A program made the translations under genes and the position numbers. Of a stretch of 21,544 nt of DNA, positions 3,405-18,352 are shown piece after piece (the first letter of the stretch is position 1; each line of letters starts with the position of its first letter). This DNA is from a virus. Where the stretch lies: positions 1 to 21,544 of the IMG/VR virus record IMGVR_UViG_3300009104_000933; one strand, 5' to 3'. The notes beneath the pieces were generated by a model, which did not search any database, was not told the origin of the DNA, and worked only from the letters and a program-made list of their open reading frames with translations.

Positions 3405-3921
3405 GTTTTTAACCAGTATATTTATTATAGGAGTTTTGTTTTTACATGCTTCTAATGTATATACGGATGAATTAACACACAAATTTAAAAATCCAAGTTT
3501 TAGTGGGGTTGGCACATCATCTCATTATCTTACAGTAGAGAATCAAGAGAAATCTAGGAGAGATGGTATTCAAGATGATATTGAATCTGCTTTAAAACAA
3601 GCAGAAAGAGATGCAGAAAACACTACATTAGCTAAATTTTTTAGGAATCTTGAGAGTAGAATTTACGCTCAATTAAGTAAACAGCTAGTAGAAAGTTTAT
3701 TTGCAACTTGCGATCCTGTAGATGTTACATGCACACAAACTACATTTGGTAGTTTTGTTTTAGAAGGTAATCAAATTACTTATCAAAAAACAACTTGCGA
3801 TTCAAGCCTTTGGGCGTGTACACAAGACGAGGAAGTTATAGTTATGACGATTATTGGAGAAGATGGAACTGAAACAATTATAGTTATACCTATAGGAGCA
3901 GGTAGTACAGGCGGTGGTTAA
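3397..3921 (+). CDS. csgF: CsgF-like curli assembly protein
   Basis: A 174-residue exported protein. A signal peptide covers about residues 1-22 (MIKFLTSIFIIGVLFLHASN). The mature N-terminus carries THKFKNPSFSGVG, which matches the QFRNPNFGG segment of CsgF that plugs into the CsgG pore. The helical middle (DIESALKQAE to LSKQLVESLF) and final beta strands (QITYQKT, EEVIVMTIIGEDGTE) follow the CsgF layout. CsgF sits with CsgG at the outer membrane and links the channel to fibre nucleation. Unusual features are two six-residue Cys loops (C-DPVDVT-C and C-DSSLWA-C) and a Gly-rich end. It overlaps csgG by 8 bases, so the pair is translationally coupled. Confidence 0.85.
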   Translation: MIKFLTSIFIIGVLFLHASNVYTDELTHKFKNPSFSGVGTSSHYLTVENQEKSRRDGIQDDIESALKQAERDAENTTLAKFFRNLESRIYAQLSKQLVESLFATCDPVDVTCTQTTFGSFVLEGNQITYQKTTCDSSLWACTQDEEVIVMTIIGEDGTETIIVIPIGAGSTGGG

Positions 3922-4798
3922 GAAGTTAATACCTATATTATTGCTTGCAGGACTCATGCATGGTTGTGCATCTTTTGTTTCTCCAGCTGGATTGGCTGAT
4001 AGAAACTGTGTAGGATTTATTGAGTGTGTAGAACCACCCAAAACAGTAGAACTTCCCACGCACGAAGAATTAAGAGGATTGCCACCGGCAGAAAAGATGC
4101 CAGTAGTTGCAGTATATAAATTTCTAGACAAAACAGGTCAAAGAAAACAAAAAGGTGATGTCGCAATGTTTTCTACAGCAGTGACACAAGGAGCCGAAAC
4201 AATGTTAATTGATGCTCTAAAAACTGCCGGAAATGGACAATGGTTTAGAGTAGTAGAAAGAGTAGGAATAGATCATCTAACTAGAGAGCGACAAATAGTT
4301 AGAACTACTAGAGAACAATATGACGAAGAGGACGATACAGGTTTAGCACCACTCCTTTTCGCAGGAATAATTCTTGAAGGAGGTGTCATAGGATTTGATA
4401 CTAATATCGAGACAGGTGGTTGGGGAGCTAGATATCTCGGCATAGGTAAGTCACAAGCTTACAGGCGAGATATAGTTACTGTCCATCTAAGAGCAGTAAG
4501 TACGCTGACAGGAGAAATACTCCTAAATGTACAAACATCAAAAACTATTCTGTCGATCGCAGATGGTTATGATGTATTTAAGTTCATTGATATGGATACT
4601 CAACTTGTAGAAATAGAAGATGGTATGACAGAGAATGAATCAGTTACACGATCGCTTCGATCATGCATTGAAGCGGCAGTGTTAGAACTAATTTACCAAG
4701 GCGAGAAACAAGAGTTTTGGAAAATTAATTGGCCAGTAGAACCTACTGAAAATATAGAGGTTCCTGTGCCAGAAAATATAGAGGAAATAAGAGGATGA
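3914..4798 (+). CDS. csgG: CsgG-like curli secretion channel lipoprotein
   Basis: A 294-residue outer-membrane channel protein of the type VIII secretion system. It starts with GTG inside the csgF end. The lipoprotein signal ends LMHGC with Cys18 as the lipidated residue. Conserved CsgG blocks are VVAVYKFLDKTGQ (64-76), FSTAVTQGAETML (86-98), the EGGVIGFDTN region, GGWGARYLGIG, STLTGEIL, TSKTILS and a C-terminal W. In E. coli nine subunits form the pore, narrowed by Tyr51, Asn55 and Phe56 of the mature protein. Here Phe is kept (Phe86) but Asn is replaced by Met85 and no Tyr lies in the preceding loop (RKQKGDVAM), so the gate chemistry differs. An extra Cys loop (C-VGFIE-C) lies near the mature N-terminus. 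Confidence 0.93.
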   Translation: MVKKLIPILLLAGLMHGCASFVSPAGLADRNCVGFIECVEPPKTVELPTHEELRGLPPAEKMPVVAVYKFLDKTGQRKQKGDVAMFSTAVTQGAETMLIDALKTAGNGQWFRVVERVGIDHLTRERQIVRTTREQYDEEDDTGLAPLLFAGIILEGGVIGFDTNIETGGWGARYLGIGKSQAYRRDIVTVHLRAVSTLTGEILLNVQTSKTILSIADGYDVFKFIDMDTQLVEIEDGMTENESVTRSLRSCIEAAVLELIYQGEKQEFWKINWPVEPTENIEVPVPENIEEIRG

Positions 4799-5523
4799 AA
4801 ATGTTTAAAAGATATATCGCATTTCTACTTTTATTATGCCCCGTAGTTGTGTTCGCAGCAGCAAATGATAATAAAATATTATTAGATCAAAGTGGTGATA
4901 CACTTAAATTGTACATTGACCAAATAGGTTATGGTAACAAATTATGTGGAACAATATCATCATCTGATTGTGCTACTGACTGGATATTAACTGGTAATAC
5001 AAACACTATTGATATTGATATGCTTGGAAACTTAAACCAAATCTTTGGTCCAACACTATTTGATTCTACTGATATAGACTTAAAACTAGAAGGTAATTCA
5101 AATATATGGGATTGGAATGTAGGTTATGGTGGAAGTGCTGATACTTCAGTATTAGATATAGATGTAGATGGAAATTCTAATACTTTCGATATAGATTGGG
5201 CTTATTCAGCTTCGTCTGAAAGATTAGATTTTGACTTAGATATCACTGGTGGATCTAATGTCTGGAATATTGACATTAATGCAGATGATGTAACTTGGGA
5301 TGTAGATGTTATTGGAAGTTCAAATAACTTTTTAACAGCACAATCTGATGGTTCAGACCAATCTTTAACTTTAGAGTGGATTGGAAGTAGTGGTGACATA
5401 GATATTATTCAAAGTAGTGGAACTTGTGGTGGAAACATTACAAATTGCTTTGGAGTTATTAACGCGGAATTTGATTCAGAAAATGCAATTGTTGACATTA
5501 AACAAAAAGATACTGGCGACTAG
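4795..5523 (+). CDS. Curlin-like secreted repeat protein 1
   Basis: A 242-residue exported protein. A signal peptide covers residues 1-22 (ending VVVFA). The mature part has repeats of about 20-25 residues with alternating hydrophobic strands and turns of the form G-x-x-N: DQIGYGN, TGNTNTIDID, EGNSNIWDW, DGNSNTFDID, IGSSNNF. This is the CsgA/CsgB curlin beta-arch pattern, with many of the usual Gln positions replaced by Asp, so it is very acidic. It carries two Cys loops (C-GTISSSD-C and C-GGNITN-C). It directly follows csgG (ATGA overlap), and its 3' end overlaps the FecR gene. It is the likely substrate or fibre subunit of the CsgG channel. The role is inferred from repeats and context. Confidence 0.75.
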   Translation: MKMFKRYIAFLLLLCPVVVFAAANDNKILLDQSGDTLKLYIDQIGYGNKLCGTISSSDCATDWILTGNTNTIDIDMLGNLNQIFGPTLFDSTDIDLKLEGNSNIWDWNVGYGGSADTSVLDIDVDGNSNTFDIDWAYSASSERLDFDLDITGGSNVWNIDINADDVTWDVDVIGSSNNFLTAQSDGSDQSLTLEWIGSSGDIDIIQSSGTCGGNITNCFGVINAEFDSENAIVDIKQKDTGD

Positions 5524-6625
5524 TCTTTTATTGATTAGTAGCTTTGTCTTTGCGGATAATGTTGGTGATATAACCGAACACAAGGGTAGTGGTGGAATAA
5601 CCCGTCAAAGTGACAGTTTTCCAACTACCCTTGGATTAGGTGTAGAGATGTTAGATCATATAGTGACTGCTAATGGTCGTATAAAAATGACCTTTATAGA
5701 TGATACAGTATTACGATTGACGGAGCATACAGAGGTTACAATAGACGAGTACTATTATGACCCTAATCAAAAGGCGAGTGCTAGAATGGCGATGAATTTC
5801 GTGTCAGGAACGGCACGATTCGCTACAGGTCGATTAGGATTAGTACCGAAAGAGAATATTGTTATTACGACCCCGACAGCCACAATAGGCATTCGTGGGA
5901 CAGATTTTACTACATCAGTTGATGAATTGGGTAGGAGTTTAGTCATCTTATTACCAGAAACTGAATGTACAATAGATGGAGATTGTTCTCCTTCTGGTGA
6001 GATTACTGTAACCAATGATGGCGGAACAGTAACATTGACTGAAGCATATGCGGCAACGATGGTATCTTCTTTAGGTACAATACCAACAGAACCTGTAAGA
6101 CTTGATAATATAAATTTAAATATGATTGATAATATGTTTATTGTCAATCCACCAAAAGAGATTAAAAAGGCAGTCGAAGAAAGTTCTGCAGCAAAAAGTG
6201 ATACTAGTACTAGTATTTTAGACTTTACTGAACTTGATACAGATTACCTTGCTAAAGATTATTTAGCTAAAGATGAATTTGAATTTACTGAATTAGATAT
6301 GGATCTATTAGATGTAGATTTTTTACAAGATGTTTTAGTTGCTATTGAAACTGTAGACATACTAAAACGAGGAGCTCGAGCAGCCGAAGGAACACAAGAG
6401 TTTACTGGTACTAAGCTGGGGTTTGATAAAGAGACACAATATAATACTATAATTGATCAAGGAATGGGTCAGATATGGTTCTATAGAGAAGTTAATGGAG
6501 TAATTTCTGCTAGAATTCCTATAGGATCAAATACAACACTGGAGAGTACAAATGAAGATAAGAAAACTGTTATTACCGTTGGTGATGGGTCTAATGTTAT
6601 CATCATCATTAATCAGAGCGGATAA
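5483..6625 (+). CDS. FecR-domain exported protein
   Basis: Starting at ATG 5483 gives 380 residues with a clean signal peptide (MQLLTLNKKILATSLLLISS, cleavage after VFA at ~24). Upstream Met codons in this frame would bury it, so I chose 5483. Residues ~45-160 are a FecR domain: VEMLDHIVTANGRIKMTFID, then FVSGTARFATG and TATIGIRGTDF. FecR domains occur in periplasmic regulators and in surface proteins next to CHASE2 cyclases. The C-terminal half is acidic with a small repeat (DYLAKDYLAKDEF) and ends GDGSNVIIIINQSG, which looks like a curlin repeat. It contains a Cys loop (C-TIDGD-C). It overlaps the curlin-like genes on both sides, by 41 and 74 bases. Confidence 0.85.
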   Translation: MQLLTLNKKILATSLLLISSFVFADNVGDITEHKGSGGITRQSDSFPTTLGLGVEMLDHIVTANGRIKMTFIDDTVLRLTEHTEVTIDEYYYDPNQKASARMAMNFVSGTARFATGRLGLVPKENIVITTPTATIGIRGTDFTTSVDELGRSLVILLPETECTIDGDCSPSGEITVTNDGGTVTLTEAYAATMVSSLGTIPTEPVRLDNINLNMIDNMFIVNPPKEIKKAVEESSAAKSDTSTSILDFTELDTDYLAKDYLAKDEFEFTELDMDLLDVDFLQDVLVAIETVDILKRGARAAEGTQEFTGTKLGFDKETQYNTIIDQGMGQIWFYREVNGVISARIPIGSNTTLESTNEDKKTVITVGDGSNVIIIINQSG

Positions 6626-7382
6626 CACTAATAGCATCGATATAACCCAAGTTGCTGGAAGTGATGATTTAGTACTTACTATTGAACAAGTAGGATATGA
6701 CAATAAAGTATTCTTTTCTATTGGTGATATAGATGATACAGAAATTAATCTAAAACAAACAGGAAATAATCAAGAAATAGGTTATACAAATGATGCTCCT
6801 AGTTGGGGATCAGGTGCTGCTTGGGGTGGTGACATTGACAGTAAGAGAGGAGATTTTAGATTCTGGCAAAATTGTACTCAAGGAACTTCTTGTAATAAAA
6901 ATGATATTCAATTCCATATAGCTTACGGTGATGATAACAAAGCATGGTGGGCTCAAGGTTATCAAATATCAAGCAGAACAGATACTAGTTGGGCAATTGA
7001 TACTTATGAAGGTGGTGGACATAAAGTAACTATTGACATTCATGGAGATAGAAATGAAATAGTTGGAGTACAAAGAAATTGTGCAGCCAATAATTGTGAT
7101 GGACACACAGCACAAATATATGTTTACGGAGATGACAATTCAATTTTTGGTAAACAGAAGGCAGATGAATCTAAAACTTTTAACTTAACTATTTTAAATG
7201 ATGATAATGTTGTAGATTATCTTCAAGACGGAAATGCATCACATACTGCTACTATAACATTAGATGGAAGTTATGGAACAGATTTAGACATAACACAACA
7301 TTCTAATTCAGCTAAATCCTATACATTATCACAAAATTGTCAAACTTCTGGAGGCTGTAGTATAAGTGTTACACAACAATAA
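6552..7382 (+). CDS. Curlin-like secreted repeat protein 2
   Basis: A 276-residue exported protein with signal peptide MKIRKLLLPLVMGLMLSSSL (cleavage near residue 23). Curlin-type repeats follow: SIDITQVAGSDD, LTIEQVGYDN, INLKQTGNNQ, IDIHGDRNEI, YVYGDDNSIFG, LDITQHSNS and a final ISVTQQ. The Q-x-G-x-x-N motif is better kept here than in the first curlin-like protein. An aromatic insert (SWGSGAAWGGD to NKAWWAQGYQ) interrupts the array. It has three Cys loops (C-TQGTS-C, C-AANN-C, C-QTSGG-C). Its signal-peptide codons overlap the end of the FecR gene by 74 bases in another frame. A two-subunit fibre (major plus nucleator) is a reasonable guess by analogy with CsgA and CsgB. Confidence 0.75.
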   Translation: MKIRKLLLPLVMGLMLSSSLIRADNTNSIDITQVAGSDDLVLTIEQVGYDNKVFFSIGDIDDTEINLKQTGNNQEIGYTNDAPSWGSGAAWGGDIDSKRGDFRFWQNCTQGTSCNKNDIQFHIAYGDDNKAWWAQGYQISSRTDTSWAIDTYEGGGHKVTIDIHGDRNEIVGVQRNCAANNCDGHTAQIYVYGDDNSIFGKQKADESKTFNLTILNDDNVVDYLQDGNASHTATITLDGSYGTDLDITQHSNSAKSYTLSQNCQTSGGCSISVTQQ

Positions 7383-7385
7383 ATA
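7378..7385 (+). promoter_or_regulatory. Possible late promoter (AATAAATA)
   Basis: AATAAATA overlaps the stop of the second curlin-like gene and ends 5 bases before the cyclase ATG. It fits NATAAATA but would give a leaderless message. Internal to the operon and weak. Confidence 0.2.
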
Positions 7386-7390
7386 GATGT

Positions 7391-9262
7391 ATGGGAAAAT
7401 ATCTTACATCTTTTACAGCTTGTGTAGTAGTATTAATTGGTCTTATTGGAATCAGAATAAGTGATCCAGATATAGTAGAACAATTAAGACTAATTAACTT
7501 TGATTATTATCAAAAATATCAAGAAACAACTCAATCAGAGTCAGTAGTTCTTCTAGACATAGGAGAAAAGACACTTGATGTAAAAGGCCAATGGCCTTTC
7601 CCTAGACAAGAATTCGCACAACTAATTTCAACTTTAAGAAACGCAAATGCTGGAATGATAGGATTTACAATTCTATTTCCAGAACCAGATAGATTTGGTG
7701 GAGATGAAGTATTTGCTTCATGGGTGAAAGATAATGGTATTATTTTATCACAAACTACTTCACAAAAATCTTCAGACTCATCTCCTTTTGTAGGTCTCGC
7801 TGTGTTAGGAGATGGAGACCCTGCAACTTTTGCATATAAGTATGCTGGAATTGTTAGTAACCTTGAACAAATACAGCAAGGTGCTTGGGGAGTAGGAATG
7901 CTCTCATCAAGTCCTGAAGTTGACAATTCAGTAAGAAGAATTCCATTAGTAGTTCAAGTTGAAGATCAACTTTATCCAAGTTTTGGGATAGAAGTAGTAA
8001 GAGTAATAAGTGATAAAATGTCTTATACTCTTAAAGTCGAACCGACAGGTATTGAGAACATGAGAATACCACCATATGAACCTGTTAAGACAGATTATAC
8101 GGGTTCAGTTTGGATAGATTGGTCAAGTGAATTTAAAAGATATGAGTATGGAGCACCATTACCAGATTTACAAGGCAAAACAGTTATTGTTGGTGTTACA
8201 GCAGAAGGAATTCAACCTCTGATTACAACACCTATAGGTTTTAAACTTCCACACGAAATACAAGCTTCTCTAATTCACACCTTAACAGGTGGAAAACAGA
8301 TCAGTAGGCCTTCATGGACAACATTAGTAGAAATATCTAGTCTTTTCTTGGTATCTTTGATAATTCTTCTAACAGTATACTATCTTCCAATTTGGACTGC
8401 TGCTTTAGTTTTCGGTAGTAGTATTGTCGGCGTTGGTTTGTCTGCCTTCTACGCGTGGAGCCATTTTGGTTTCTTGTTCGATATCTCATATATCTTTGCC
8501 ACCCTTGTATTAGTATTTAGTCATTCAAGTTTTAACAACTTCTACAGACAATACAAATTAAGACAACAAATTAAAGGCCAATTTGGAACTTACTTATCTC
8601 CAGATATGGTTGATATGCTAGTTAAAGACCCTTCATTGATGAAACTAGGTGGAGATAGAAAAGATATGACTTTCTTGTTTGCAGACATAGTTGGATTTAC
8701 TCCAATATCAGAAGCCTATATGAAAAAAGATGATCCAGAAGGATTAGTAGAATTAATCAATTTATTCTTAGATAGACTTACAAAGATTATTCTTAAAAAT
8801 GGTGGTACTATTGATAAGTATATGGGCGATTGTATCATGGCGTTCTGGAATGCTCCTTTACCATGTGAAGATCATGCATTTAAAGCTGTTCTTTCTGCAA
8901 TAGAGATAGAATTAGAGTGTGAAAAATTAAATAACGAATTAGTAGAACAGGGTCTAGATTTACCAAAAGTTAAGATAGGCACAGGGATAAACACAGGTAG
9001 ATGTATTGTTGGTAATATGGGAAGTGAATCTAGATTTGATTATTCTGTAGTTGGAGATGCTGTAAATCTAGGTGCTAGGTTAGAAGTTCAGACAAGACAA
9101 TATGATACACCAATCTTAATTTCTTCATATACACATGATCTTATTAGTAGTGAGTTTCAATGTGATAGATTAGATGAAATTAAAGTTAAGGGTAAAGATG
9201 AACCTGTAGAAATCTTTGCACCTTTAATTGAAGGTGAAGTTAGAAAATTATATAAAGATTAG
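7391..9262 (+). CDS. CHASE2 domain adenylate cyclase (class III)
   Basis: A 623-residue membrane enzyme that should convert ATP to cAMP. The order is N-terminal membrane helix (~5-23), periplasmic CHASE2 sensor (~30-300, with LLDIGEKTLDVKGQWPFPR), three membrane helices (~311-378), linker and cyclase domain (~420-605). Catalytic residues are intact: metal-binding Asp432 (FADIVGF) and Asp480 (KYMGD), ATP-selecting Lys476, and Asn559 and Arg563 in VVGDAVNLGARLE. Lys476 with Ser552 favours ATP over GTP, as in bacterial cyclases that use Lys and Thr. It is last in the curli-like operon, 8 bases after the second curlin-like gene. In bacteria CHASE2 cyclases often neighbour FecR proteins, so the pair may be a sensing unit. 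Full length, no sign of decay. Confidence 0.93.
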   Translation: MGKYLTSFTACVVVLIGLIGIRISDPDIVEQLRLINFDYYQKYQETTQSESVVLLDIGEKTLDVKGQWPFPRQEFAQLISTLRNANAGMIGFTILFPEPDRFGGDEVFASWVKDNGIILSQTTSQKSSDSSPFVGLAVLGDGDPATFAYKYAGIVSNLEQIQQGAWGVGMLSSSPEVDNSVRRIPLVVQVEDQLYPSFGIEVVRVISDKMSYTLKVEPTGIENMRIPPYEPVKTDYTGSVWIDWSSEFKRYEYGAPLPDLQGKTVIVGVTAEGIQPLITTPIGFKLPHEIQASLIHTLTGGKQISRPSWTTLVEISSLFLVSLIILLTVYYLPIWTAALVFGSSIVGVGLSAFYAWSHFGFLFDISYIFATLVLVFSHSSFNNFYRQYKLRQQIKGQFGTYLSPDMVDMLVKDPSLMKLGGDRKDMTFLFADIVGFTPISEAYMKKDDPEGLVELINLFLDRLTKIILKNGGTIDKYMGDCIMAFWNAPLPCEDHAFKAVLSAIEIELECEKLNNELVEQGLDLPKVKIGTGINTGRCIVGNMGSESRFDYSVVGDAVNLGARLEVQTRQYDTPILISSYTHDLISSEFQCDRLDEIKVKGKDEPVEIFAPLIEGEVRKLYKD

Positions 9263-9292
9263 TTGAAACCACCGGTACACTTTTAGTATAAT
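9263..9292 (+). promoter_or_regulatory. Promoter copy 1 with conserved CCRCCGGTAC spacer
   Basis: The -35 TTGAAA (9263-9268) directly follows the cyclase stop, with an 18-base spacer beginning CCACCGGTACACTTTT and -10 TATAAT (9287-9292). Two more copies with the same spacer lie at 9598-9627 and 18111-18140. Expected start near 9299. Confidence 0.85.
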
Positions 9293-9298
9293 ATATGT

Positions 9299-9600
9299 CA
9301 TACGATTGAGAAAGTCAGTTCTATAGAAACTGATTCAGGAAACAAGAAGTTTCCAGAGTAGGTCGGTTGTTGAGTTCATGATAGACTACAACTGTAAACG
9401 AAATCCTACTCCTTTCTCAATTACGGTTACGGAGATGTTTTAAGAATTGGATCTAAAGCTTGGTCCAGAATCATTAAAACGAAGTATTAGAAATCGAAAG
9501 TGGGAAAATACGGGACAACAAGTAAACGAAAAAGGAACGCAGAAACCTTGTTAAAAAATAATGAGTTAAAAAGGGAAGCTCCAATTGGAGCTTTTCCTTG
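9299..9600 (+). ncRNA. Stand-alone structured RNA with four-way junction, unknown family
   Basis: The RNA is bounded by promoter copy 1 and an intrinsic terminator, with no credible reading frame. The first ~120 nt fold into a cloverleaf-like four-way junction. The closing helix is ATTGAGAAAG 9305-9314 with CTTTCTCAAT 9412-9421 (10 bp). Arm 1 is TCAGTT/AACTGA (9315-9320, 9328-9333), arm 2 GGAAAC/GTTTCC (9338-9343, 9349-9354), and arm 3 GAGTAGG/CCTACTC (9356-9362, 9405-9411) with an inner 7-bp helix (9364-9370 with 9388-9394). Next is a long hairpin at 9437-9480 (GTTTTAA/TTAAAAC outer stem, GGATC/GGTCC inner). Weaker stems lie at 9484-9511 and 9517-9552. I do not recognise the family. tRNA, tmRNA and RNase P do not fit. 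Confidence 0.75.
9571..9600 (+). terminator. Rho-independent terminator of the structured RNA
   Basis: Stem AAGCTCC/GGAGCTT (9576-9582 and 9587-9593) with AATT loop, extended by flanking A-rich and T-rich bases, followed by TTTT then CCTT. It separates the structured RNA from promoter copy 2, whose -35 lies in its tail. Confidence 0.85.
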
Positions 9601-9627
9601 TATCCGCCGGTACCCTTTTGTTATAAT
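9598..9627 (+). promoter_or_regulatory. Promoter copy 2 with conserved CCRCCGGTAC spacer
   Basis: A weak -35 TTGTAT (9598-9603), an 18-base spacer beginning CCGCCGGTACCCTTTT and -10 TATAAT (9622-9627). Expected start near 9634. It drives the leader and the gene at 9734. Confidence 0.8.
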
Positions 9628-9633
9628 GTATAC

Positions 9634-9733
9634 ATAATGAGAAAAGTGAGAAAAATGACAGATTGTATGTAACGGCCAGAGGTGGGGAAACGGAAAAGGT
9701 CGACACTACTCCCCATAGACTACGAGAAAAATT
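9634..9733 (+). other. Structured 5' leader of the 9734 gene
   Basis: About 100 untranslated bases after promoter copy 2. TGGGGA (9683-9688) pairs with TCCCCA (9710-9715), and CGGCC (9673-9677) could pair alternatively with GGTCG (9698-9702). The leader shares AGGTCG and ATAGACTAC with the structured RNA upstream. An 11-codon frame (9637-9672, MRKVRKMTDCM) starts almost at the 5' end and could be a leader peptide, but nothing else supports it. Confidence 0.45.
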
Positions 9734-9946
9734 ATGATACTACTAGAAAGAAAATCCCCCAGAACCGGCAAAATGAATTCAATGCTCTTGGATACTACTT
9801 ATGAAGCATTAGATTCTTATTGGAGAGGTGAAGGATTTGTTCAAGACATTTTTCCAAATCTTAATGAAAATGAGCGTGAGTTCATTAAAACAGGTTATAC
9901 CCAAGAAGATTGGGACGCAATCTTTCCACCAGAGGACTTTGAATGA
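9734..9946 (+). CDS. Small acidic protein, unknown function
   Basis: A 70-residue protein beginning MILLERKSPRTGK and ending EEDWDAIF-type acidic residues (YTQEDWDAIFPPEDFE). The pattern of W-x-x-G, a hydrophobic-F-P-x-L block (VQDIFPNLNENEREF), then T-G-x-T-x-E-x-W-D is one I have seen in small hypothetical phage and plasmid proteins that contact DNA-replication genes, but I can give no function. It overlaps the next gene by four bases (ATGA), so the two are translationally coupled. It is the first gene after promoter copy 2, which suggests early expression. Confidence 0.75.
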   Translation: MILLERKSPRTGKMNSMLLDTTYEALDSYWRGEGFVQDIFPNLNENEREFIKTGYTQEDWDAIFPPEDFE

Positions 9947-16784: not shown

Positions 16785-18114
16785 AGAATATACTAGAAAA
16801 GTATTACCTTACATAAAATCAGAATTCTTTCAAGAGAGGGACGAGGAGTTCCTATTCAAACAAGTTAGAGAGTACTTTTTAAAGTATAAATCTATTCCCA
16901 CACCTGAAGCTTTAATAATTGACATTGATGAAAAAGATGATGTTGATGCTCAATTACTTCAAGAATCTATAAATCTTATTCAAGAAATAAAAACAGATAA
17001 TTCATCTACACCAGAAGAATGGTTGATTGATTCAACAGAGTCTTGGTGTAAAGATAGAGCTGTTTATAATGGAGTGATGAACTCTATTGAGATTCTTCAA
17101 AATGATGGTACTAAAGGTGAAATTCCAGATATTTTAAGAGATGCATTATCAGTATCTTTTGATACAAATATTGGACATGATTTCTTAGATGATTGGGAAC
17201 CAAGATTTGATTTTTATCATACAGAAGAAGAAAGAATTCCTTTTGACTTAGAATTAATGAATAAAATAACAAAAGGTGGAATGCCGAATAAGACATTAAA
17301 TATTTGTATGGCAGGAACAGGTGTTGGTAAATCTTTGTTTATGTGTCATGTTGCATCCAGTTGTTTAGTTCAAGGTAAAAATGTTTTATATATTACTATG
17401 GAAATGGCTGAGGAAAAGATTGCTGAAAGAATAGATGCTAATCTACTTGATATATCATTAAATGATTTAAACGATTTACCGAAGTCAATGTATAAAAAGA
17501 AGATTAAAAGAGTTCAAGAAAAGACAAAAGGTAAATTGATTGTCAAAGAATATCCAACAGCTTCAGCTCATTCTGGACACTTTAGACATTTACTTCAAGA
17601 ATTAGATTTGAAGAAAAATTTCAAACCTGATATAATATTTGTAGATTATTTAAATATATGTGCTTCATTCAGAGTTAGACCTGGTAGTAATGTAAATACT
17701 TACACTTATGTTAAGAGTATTGCCGAAGAAATGAGAGGACTTGCTGTAGAGTTTGATGTTCCAATTATGTCAGCTACTCAAACAAATAGAACAGGGTTTG
17801 TTTCTACAGATGTTGGACTTGAAGATACATCAGAATCCTTCGGATTACCCGCTACAGCGGACTTTATGTTCGCATTGATATCTACAGAAGATTTACAAGA
17901 ACTAGACCAAGTAATGGTTAAACAGTTAAAGAATAGATATAATGACCCAACATATCATAGACGATTTGTTGTGGGTGTAGATAGATCAAAAATGAGATTG
18001 TTTGATTGTGAACAGTCTGCTCAAGATGAATTAGTTGATATAGGACCTGTAATGGATCAATCAACTACAGGTGAAAGAATCAGTAGTGAAAAAACAGAAG
18101 ATTTTAAGTATTGA
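16735..18114 (+). CDS. 41: Replicative DNA helicase (T4 gp41, DnaB-like)
   Basis: A 459-residue helicase that unwinds the lagging-strand template. The frame is open from 16708, but ATG 16735 ([13 protein letters not shown]) gives the usual N-terminal helix of the family and is preferred; it overlaps uvsX by 50 bases. Walker A is AGTGVGKS (193-200), [13 protein letters not shown] (221-233) is the H1a block with catalytic Glu, and Walker B is IIFVDYLNI (300-308). SATQTNR near residue 350 is the H3 motif. The last residues are acidic and polar. It should work with a primase elsewhere in the genome. Confidence 0.95.
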
Positions 18115-18140
18115 CACCGCCGGTACACTTTTGTTATAAT
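18111..18140 (+). promoter_or_regulatory. Promoter copy 3 with conserved CCRCCGGTAC spacer
   Basis: Consensus -35 TTGACA (18111-18116), overlapping the helicase stop, an 18-base spacer beginning CCGCCGGTACACTTTT and -10 TATAAT (18135-18140). The best of the three copies. Expected start near 18147. Confidence 0.88.
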
Positions 18141-18195
18141 ATAAAGGTAAGATTGGAAAATCGGTTCTTAACGAGGGAAATAACAGTACCTTTAC

Positions 18196-18253
18196 AATGT
18201 GGACTTTAGTGAGATGAATATCTCCTACGAATGGATAGAGTCCTGAGAGGATT
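18196..18253 (+). repeat. 58-nt direct repeat, copy 1
   Basis: Begins AATGTGGACTTTAG and ends GAGAGGATT. It matches copy 2 at 57 of 58 positions; the period is 79 bases, with a 21-base spacer between the copies. Confidence 0.97.
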
Positions 18254-18274
18254 GAGTTAAGATAGTCCGACTCT

Positions 18275-18332
18275 AATGTGGATTTTAGTGAGATGAATAT
18301 CTCCTACGAATGGATAGAGTCCTGAGAGGATT
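18275..18332 (+). repeat. 58-nt direct repeat, copy 2
   Basis: Identical to copy 1 except C to T at 18283. The change turns a C-G pair of the predicted outer stem into U-G, so pairing is kept. Confidence 0.97.
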
Positions 18333-18352
18333 AGAGGATTAAAAGATAAATT

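Follow-up and report, generated by a model that had tools for sequence, protein, structure and literature searches.

Between the stop codon of a cyclase gene (position 9262) and the next phage promoter, a T4-like (pelagimyophage-like) marine phage contig carries a well-supported gene for a structured noncoding RNA, a predicted transcript that probably acts in trans. The contig, referred to below as the window, is a 21.5-kb virus record of IMG/VR and was analysed over its full 21,544 nucleotides. It is proposed, with somewhat less than even confidence, that this free-standing RNA functions as a homodimer or a larger homo-oligomer; the chief competing explanation has it bind a protein or the ribosome as a monomer. 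Natural complexes composed of RNA only have been described from a handful of families, all of them large and poorly understood in function. If the proposal is true, a small phage RNA sharing that hallmark would lend itself much more readily to structure determination and mutation, and RNA self-assembly would begin to look like something phages use repeatedly in tRNA islands. A monomer, too, would be a structured RNA gene not described before, from phages whose relatives infect SAR11, which is among the ocean's most abundant bacteria.

An earlier note on this DNA had described a promoter, some 300 bases devoid of reading frames and a terminator, together forming an independent RNA gene. The promoter is an instance of a 30-bp motif conserved throughout the phage group, and 9299-9600 contains no open reading frame (ORF) of at least 50 amino acids. 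The independence of the gene is supported by other phage contigs, which keep the cassette of promoter, RNA and hairpin whilst differing in what lies downstream; the distance between promoter and 3′ hairpin is 260-300 nt. The terminator was upheld in part. The hairpin is present and overlaps the −35 element of the next promoter, but the U-rich stretch that follows is modest and a simple terminator scan calls the hairpin on the minus strand only, so the transcript likely, but not certainly, ends here. The features are collected in Table 1.

Table 1. Features of the RNA gene and its promoters (positions in the window).
Feature	Position	Strand	Details
Noncoding RNA gene (predicted transcript)	9299-9600	+	no ORF; homologues in L016, L015 and L017; no Rfam match
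Four-way junction domain	9304-9422	+	fold z −4.4 to −4.7; 1/126 differences to L016
P1 closing helix	9304-9314/9412-9422	+	11 bp including terminal G.U
Arm P2	9315-9333	+	6 bp UCAGUU/AACUGA; loop CUAUAGA; palindrome CUAUAG at 9321-9326
Arm P3	9338-9354	+	6 bp GGAAAC/GUUUCC; loop AAGAA; one G-C to G-U change in L016
Arm P4	9356-9411	+	base helix GAGUAGG/CCUACUC; loop palindrome UCAUGA at 9376-9381
Long hairpin	9436-9481	+	loop palindrome AAGCUU at 9456-9461; window-specific insertion
A-rich, mostly unpaired conserved stretch	9480-9553	+	4/74 differences to L016, 3/74 to L015
3′ hairpin, probable intrinsic terminator	9571-9599	+	folds in four copies, mostly pair-preserving changes
RNA promoter	9263-9292	+	TTGAAACCACCGGTACACTTTTAGTATAAT; 30-bp phage-group motif TTGA-N4-C-N-C-N-GGTACNCTTTTNNTATAAT (9272 site)
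Next promoter, same type	9598-9627	+	directly 3′ of the RNA; delimits the RNA cassette
Third promoter copy	18111-18140		same 30-bp motif

The first 124 nt of the RNA fold into a four-way junction, as had been claimed, with a closing helix of 11 bp (including a terminal G.U pair) where 10 had been counted. The 3′ strand of P4 abuts P1 with zero unpaired bases between them, and the pair probabilities of P4 are all at least 0.989. The view that such pairing is unlikely to be due to chance also holds: the first 130 nt have a fold z-score of −4.43, with 0 of 200 shuffles as stable; the whole RNA scores −3.92, again with no shuffle as stable, and the junction domain of the homologue in contig L016 scores −3.94. 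The absolute folding energy is unremarkable (34 of the window's 688 other stretches fold as stably), so it is the comparison with shuffles of equal composition, together with evolution, that carries the structural claim. Beyond the junction, the middle part of the RNA folds no better than chance (z −0.13). A long hairpin that had been placed after the junction is real but proved specific to the window, being carried by an insertion of about 39 nt where L016 and L015 have a short spacer instead.

Within the collections searched, the RNA occurs in only three other viral contigs: L016 carries a complete copy, the copy in L015 begins inside the P4 arm and L017 retains the 3′ part only. Between the window and L016, the junction domain differs at 1 of 126 positions and the terminal hairpin at 11 of 32 (a figure inflated by the automatic alignment in that region), whilst flanking genes in that contig show 58-88% identity at their four-fold degenerate sites. 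These differences argue that selection acts on the junction domain, and the contrast within a single transcript favours this explanation over recent transfer of the whole block. The earlier note had held that homologues without compensatory changes would speak against its interpretation, but such change is present. In P4, L015 reads GUGG/CCAC against GUAGG/CCUAC in the window, such that both partners of one A-U pair have been lost, a compensated deletion read by hand from the sequences that the automatic alignment does not place; supplied with a borrowed 5′ part, the L015 arm refolds identically (P ≥ 0.99). No junction pair is broken in the comparable sequences and most are invariant. The terminal hairpin, once re-aligned by eye, displays C-G to U-A and U-A to C-G changes together with one C-A mismatch in L017.

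Wider searches added no further members. A covariance model of the junction domain (R1), run on 95 loci and 30 virus records, identified only the window, L016 and L015 as real; a 15.8-bit match in G017 was rejected as it lies inside an ORF, and 14.4-bit matches in L014 and L152 were rejected as weak. DNA pattern scans for the conserved stretches returned, beyond L015, L016 and L017, only chance matches in unrelated or coding DNA, and a distant blastn search against 50,697 phage records yielded only chance fragments in staphylococcal phages. No credible match that would indicate host mimicry was found in 385 genomes of the class drawn around an alphaproteobacterial MAG.

Three hairpin loops of the RNA contain 6-nt palindromes: CUAUAG in P2, UCAUGA in P4 (counting the closing U) and AAGCUU in the window-specific arm. 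Dinucleotide shuffles form 3.3 loops on average, of which 4.6% are palindromic, and reach three palindromic loops in 2 of 3000 cases, a figure to be read with the palindromes having been noticed post hoc; no other stretch of the window, of 688 compared, has three. The P2 loop is invariant wherever it can be compared, and AAGCUU belongs to the window copy only. In L015, the P4 loop is UCGCGA, two adjacent nucleotides having changed with the palindrome kept; this is a single event, and a random double substitution of the loop leaves a 6-nt palindrome in 12-17% of cases. Both versions of the loop give the same predicted intramolecular fold energy (−37.8). Palindrome-preserving changes of adjacent nucleotides have been accepted for loops L9.3 of OLE and L21a of GOLLD (PMC12286853), and by the argument of that study, namely that adjacent nucleotides cannot pair within one chain, the L015 swap may be read as an intermolecular signature. 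An alternative P4 pairing, GUAGGUC/GACUAC, could also fit the swap but was rejected, being 11 kcal/mol worse in the full domain. Isolated 6-bp duplexes of the loops are weak (−3.8 to −7.9 kcal/mol versus −10.9 for GCGCGC). Self-association through the palindromic loops, drawn from these few sequences, is put forward tentatively, at somewhat less than even confidence. It would provide a specific alternative to the regulator, decoy and scaffold roles that had previously been offered as guesses.

The genomic slot occupied by the RNA bears upon how it may act. Downstream lies a new promoter in the window and L017, a tRNA-Asp gene in L015 and an ORF in L016; the upstream genes also differ between the window and L016. 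In other contigs the same slot contains tRNA-Asp under the same promoter (L004/L113 and L112) or a small ORF (L012, L109 and others). As the flanks vary and tRNA-Asp can take its place, the RNA probably acts in trans, and the changing contents point to a cargo slot for small genes in which the RNA is a self-contained cassette. A role in cis, either as a regulatory 5′ leader or as a processing element within the precursor of an adjacent tRNA, would accord with the tRNA-Asp of L015 and with the ORF of L016, which begins about 20 nt past the RNA and has a ribosome site without a separate promoter. Such a role is nevertheless decidedly improbable: the window and L017 have a new promoter immediately after the RNA, which means that there is no one downstream gene for it to serve, and the 3′ hairpin separates the RNA from the sequence beyond. 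The size of the RNA, its own promoter and its 3′ hairpin would suit a trans-acting small RNA that pairs with phage or host mRNAs, but this too appears improbable, since no complementarity to the rest of the window exceeds 11 nt, a length that most shuffles reach as well, and antisense pairing has no need of a rigid, near-invariant junction. That the structure has no function, having arisen by chance in a spacer or in a decaying mobile cassette, might be supposed from its rare and patchy occurrence in few contigs. The fold statistics, the compensated pair deletion, the conserved promoter and a junction that is near-invariant whilst the flanks and terminal hairpin diverge make this explanation very improbable.

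The choice therefore lies chiefly between an RNA that associates with itself and one that does not. Under the oligomer proposal, the conserved promoter peculiar to the phage group would drive the RNA within the variable slot, and the rigid junction of the RNA would fix the directions of P2 and P4, and of the extra arm in the window. With the arms so held, copies would join through symmetric kissing loops, each loop pairing with the same loop of another copy, to give dimers or larger assemblies, and the conserved unpaired A-rich strand would present a surface to a protein, ribosome or RNA partner. This proposal draws on three homologous loci, one of them full length. The monomeric alternative, a stand-alone RNA whose junction and A-rich part bind the ribosome or a protein of the host or the phage, as scaffold, decoy or sponge, is credited with a substantial minority share of the probability. 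It draws support from the conservation of the unpaired A-rich region, which suggests a binding site, and from the small number of sequences behind the palindrome evidence. However, it requires the palindromes to be coincidental or to bind something else, and leaves both the presence of three such loops and the palindrome-preserving swap in L015 unexplained.

The earlier assignment to no known family agrees with an Rfam search (cmscan) of the window, of region 9263-9760 and of the L016 copy, in which GOLLD, ROOL and OLE were absent even at permissive E-values and the best match in the region, ohsC_RNA, reached 18.4 bits against a gathering threshold of 50. ARAGORN called 0 tRNA or tmRNA genes in the window. 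Short motifs had resembled a group I intron or splicing remnant, a candidate rejected as Intron_gpI was not found in the Rfam search. Among phage RNAs, the stable RNAs C and D of T4 (species 1 and 2) lie in a tRNA cluster and their function is unknown; they are likewise noncoding, from a T4-like myovirus and adjoin tRNA genes, but they are smaller, and distant blastn against the 50,697 phage records found no homology to them. The phi29 pRNA is a phage structural RNA that oligomerises through loop-loop pairing and serves packaging in a podovirus, whereas T4-like phages are not known to need one for packaging. The proposed loop-loop oligomerisation is similar, although the paired loops of pRNA are non-identical.

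GOLLD and ROOL, phage and prophage RNAs that form homo-oligomeric nanocages (PMC12286853), offer the closer comparison. In common with them, the present RNA is phage-encoded, stand-alone, noncoding, multi-branched and associated with tRNA genes (tRNA-Asp lies directly 3′ in L015 and occupies the slot in L004/L113, the window itself having no tRNA), and it has palindromic loops that may form symmetric kissing contacts as well as one palindrome-preserving loop change. It differs in its size of about 260-300 nt, compared with 600-800 or more, in matching neither family in Rfam by sequence or structure, and in its few homologues, and its oligomer is a prediction. A homodimer model is shared with OLE (PMC12286853), but OLE is bacterial, larger, protein-associated and unrelated in sequence. 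With the Rfam models unmatched and about half the size or less, the RNA is not a member of GOLLD, ROOL or OLE and constitutes a new RNA family; by mechanism, it is possibly a small variant of the self-assembling phage RNAs. The more exacting version of this idea, in which two or three palindromic kissing loops, held by the rigid junction, would bring copies of a compact RNA of about 260-300 nt together into defined homo-oligomers as a much smaller, independent counterpart of the GOLLD/ROOL nanocages, and arm 9436-9481 would add one contact in the window, is considered unlikely.

The promoter motif TTGA....C.C.GGTACNCTTTTNNTATAAT occurs three times in the window, as against 0 in 100 shuffles. 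Related contigs contribute 32 distinct instances, all with identical spacing, from many loci within L003-L025 and L106-L149; no match of useful similarity was found among named phage records. At 15 instances an ORF, often with ATG, starts 6-11 nt past the −10 box, giving near-leaderless genes, and the remainder precede longer leaders, noncoding stretches or tRNA-Asp. Given that the −10 box, TATAAT, is of the sigma-70 type, some phage or host factor probably recognises the conserved GGTACNCTTTT spacer. Attempts to predict middle and late promoters in pelagimyophages were reportedly unsuccessful (PMC7029224), and the motif may therefore be useful by itself.

Several other elements adjoin these promoters. 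Between the second promoter and a 70-aa ORF at 9734, positions 9634-9733 comprise an ORF of 11 codons and some 70 nt of noncoding sequence (GGTGGGGAAACGG...ACTACTCCCC), with a fold no better than that of shuffles; relatives have a different leader ORF at the equivalent position. The third promoter copy drives a noncoding stretch (18141-18352) that contains a tandem duplication with a 79-nt period, its 58-nt copies (at about 18196 and 18275) being 98% identical. L007 carries an identical stretch; in L008 the same gene is preceded by a quite different noncoding RNA, about 390 nt long. The slot element of L012, L109 and others was considered as a second RNA and rejected, on our own reading, as a small ORF (L012:2740-2960, L109:490-720 and similar); its conserved stretch GWE..KTTSRGGLTSLKKLRDENG recurs in many related phages.

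The remainder of the window is in keeping with its T4-like assignment, with a gp43-type DNA polymerase (about 50% identical to cyanomyovirus polymerases), a UvsX-like recombinase and a DnaB-like helicase. Upstream of the RNA, 3914-9262 encodes a curli-like cluster, including CsgG and a FecR-domain protein, followed by a CHASE2-adenylate/guanylate cyclase; such curli clusters are known in pelagimyophages (PMC7029224). Curlin-like NSN repeats are visible by eye in the cluster proteins at 4795-5523 and 6552-7382. The cyclase has relatives in at least 80 viral contigs, the nearest named ones belonging to Pelagibacter phage HTVC008M (43%) and OM43 phage Melnitz (34%). A 797-aa protein at 19046-21439 matches no PHROG and, by eye, combines a PAP2-like PSGHSTQGR motif with an HNH-like DHRIPYGS motif.
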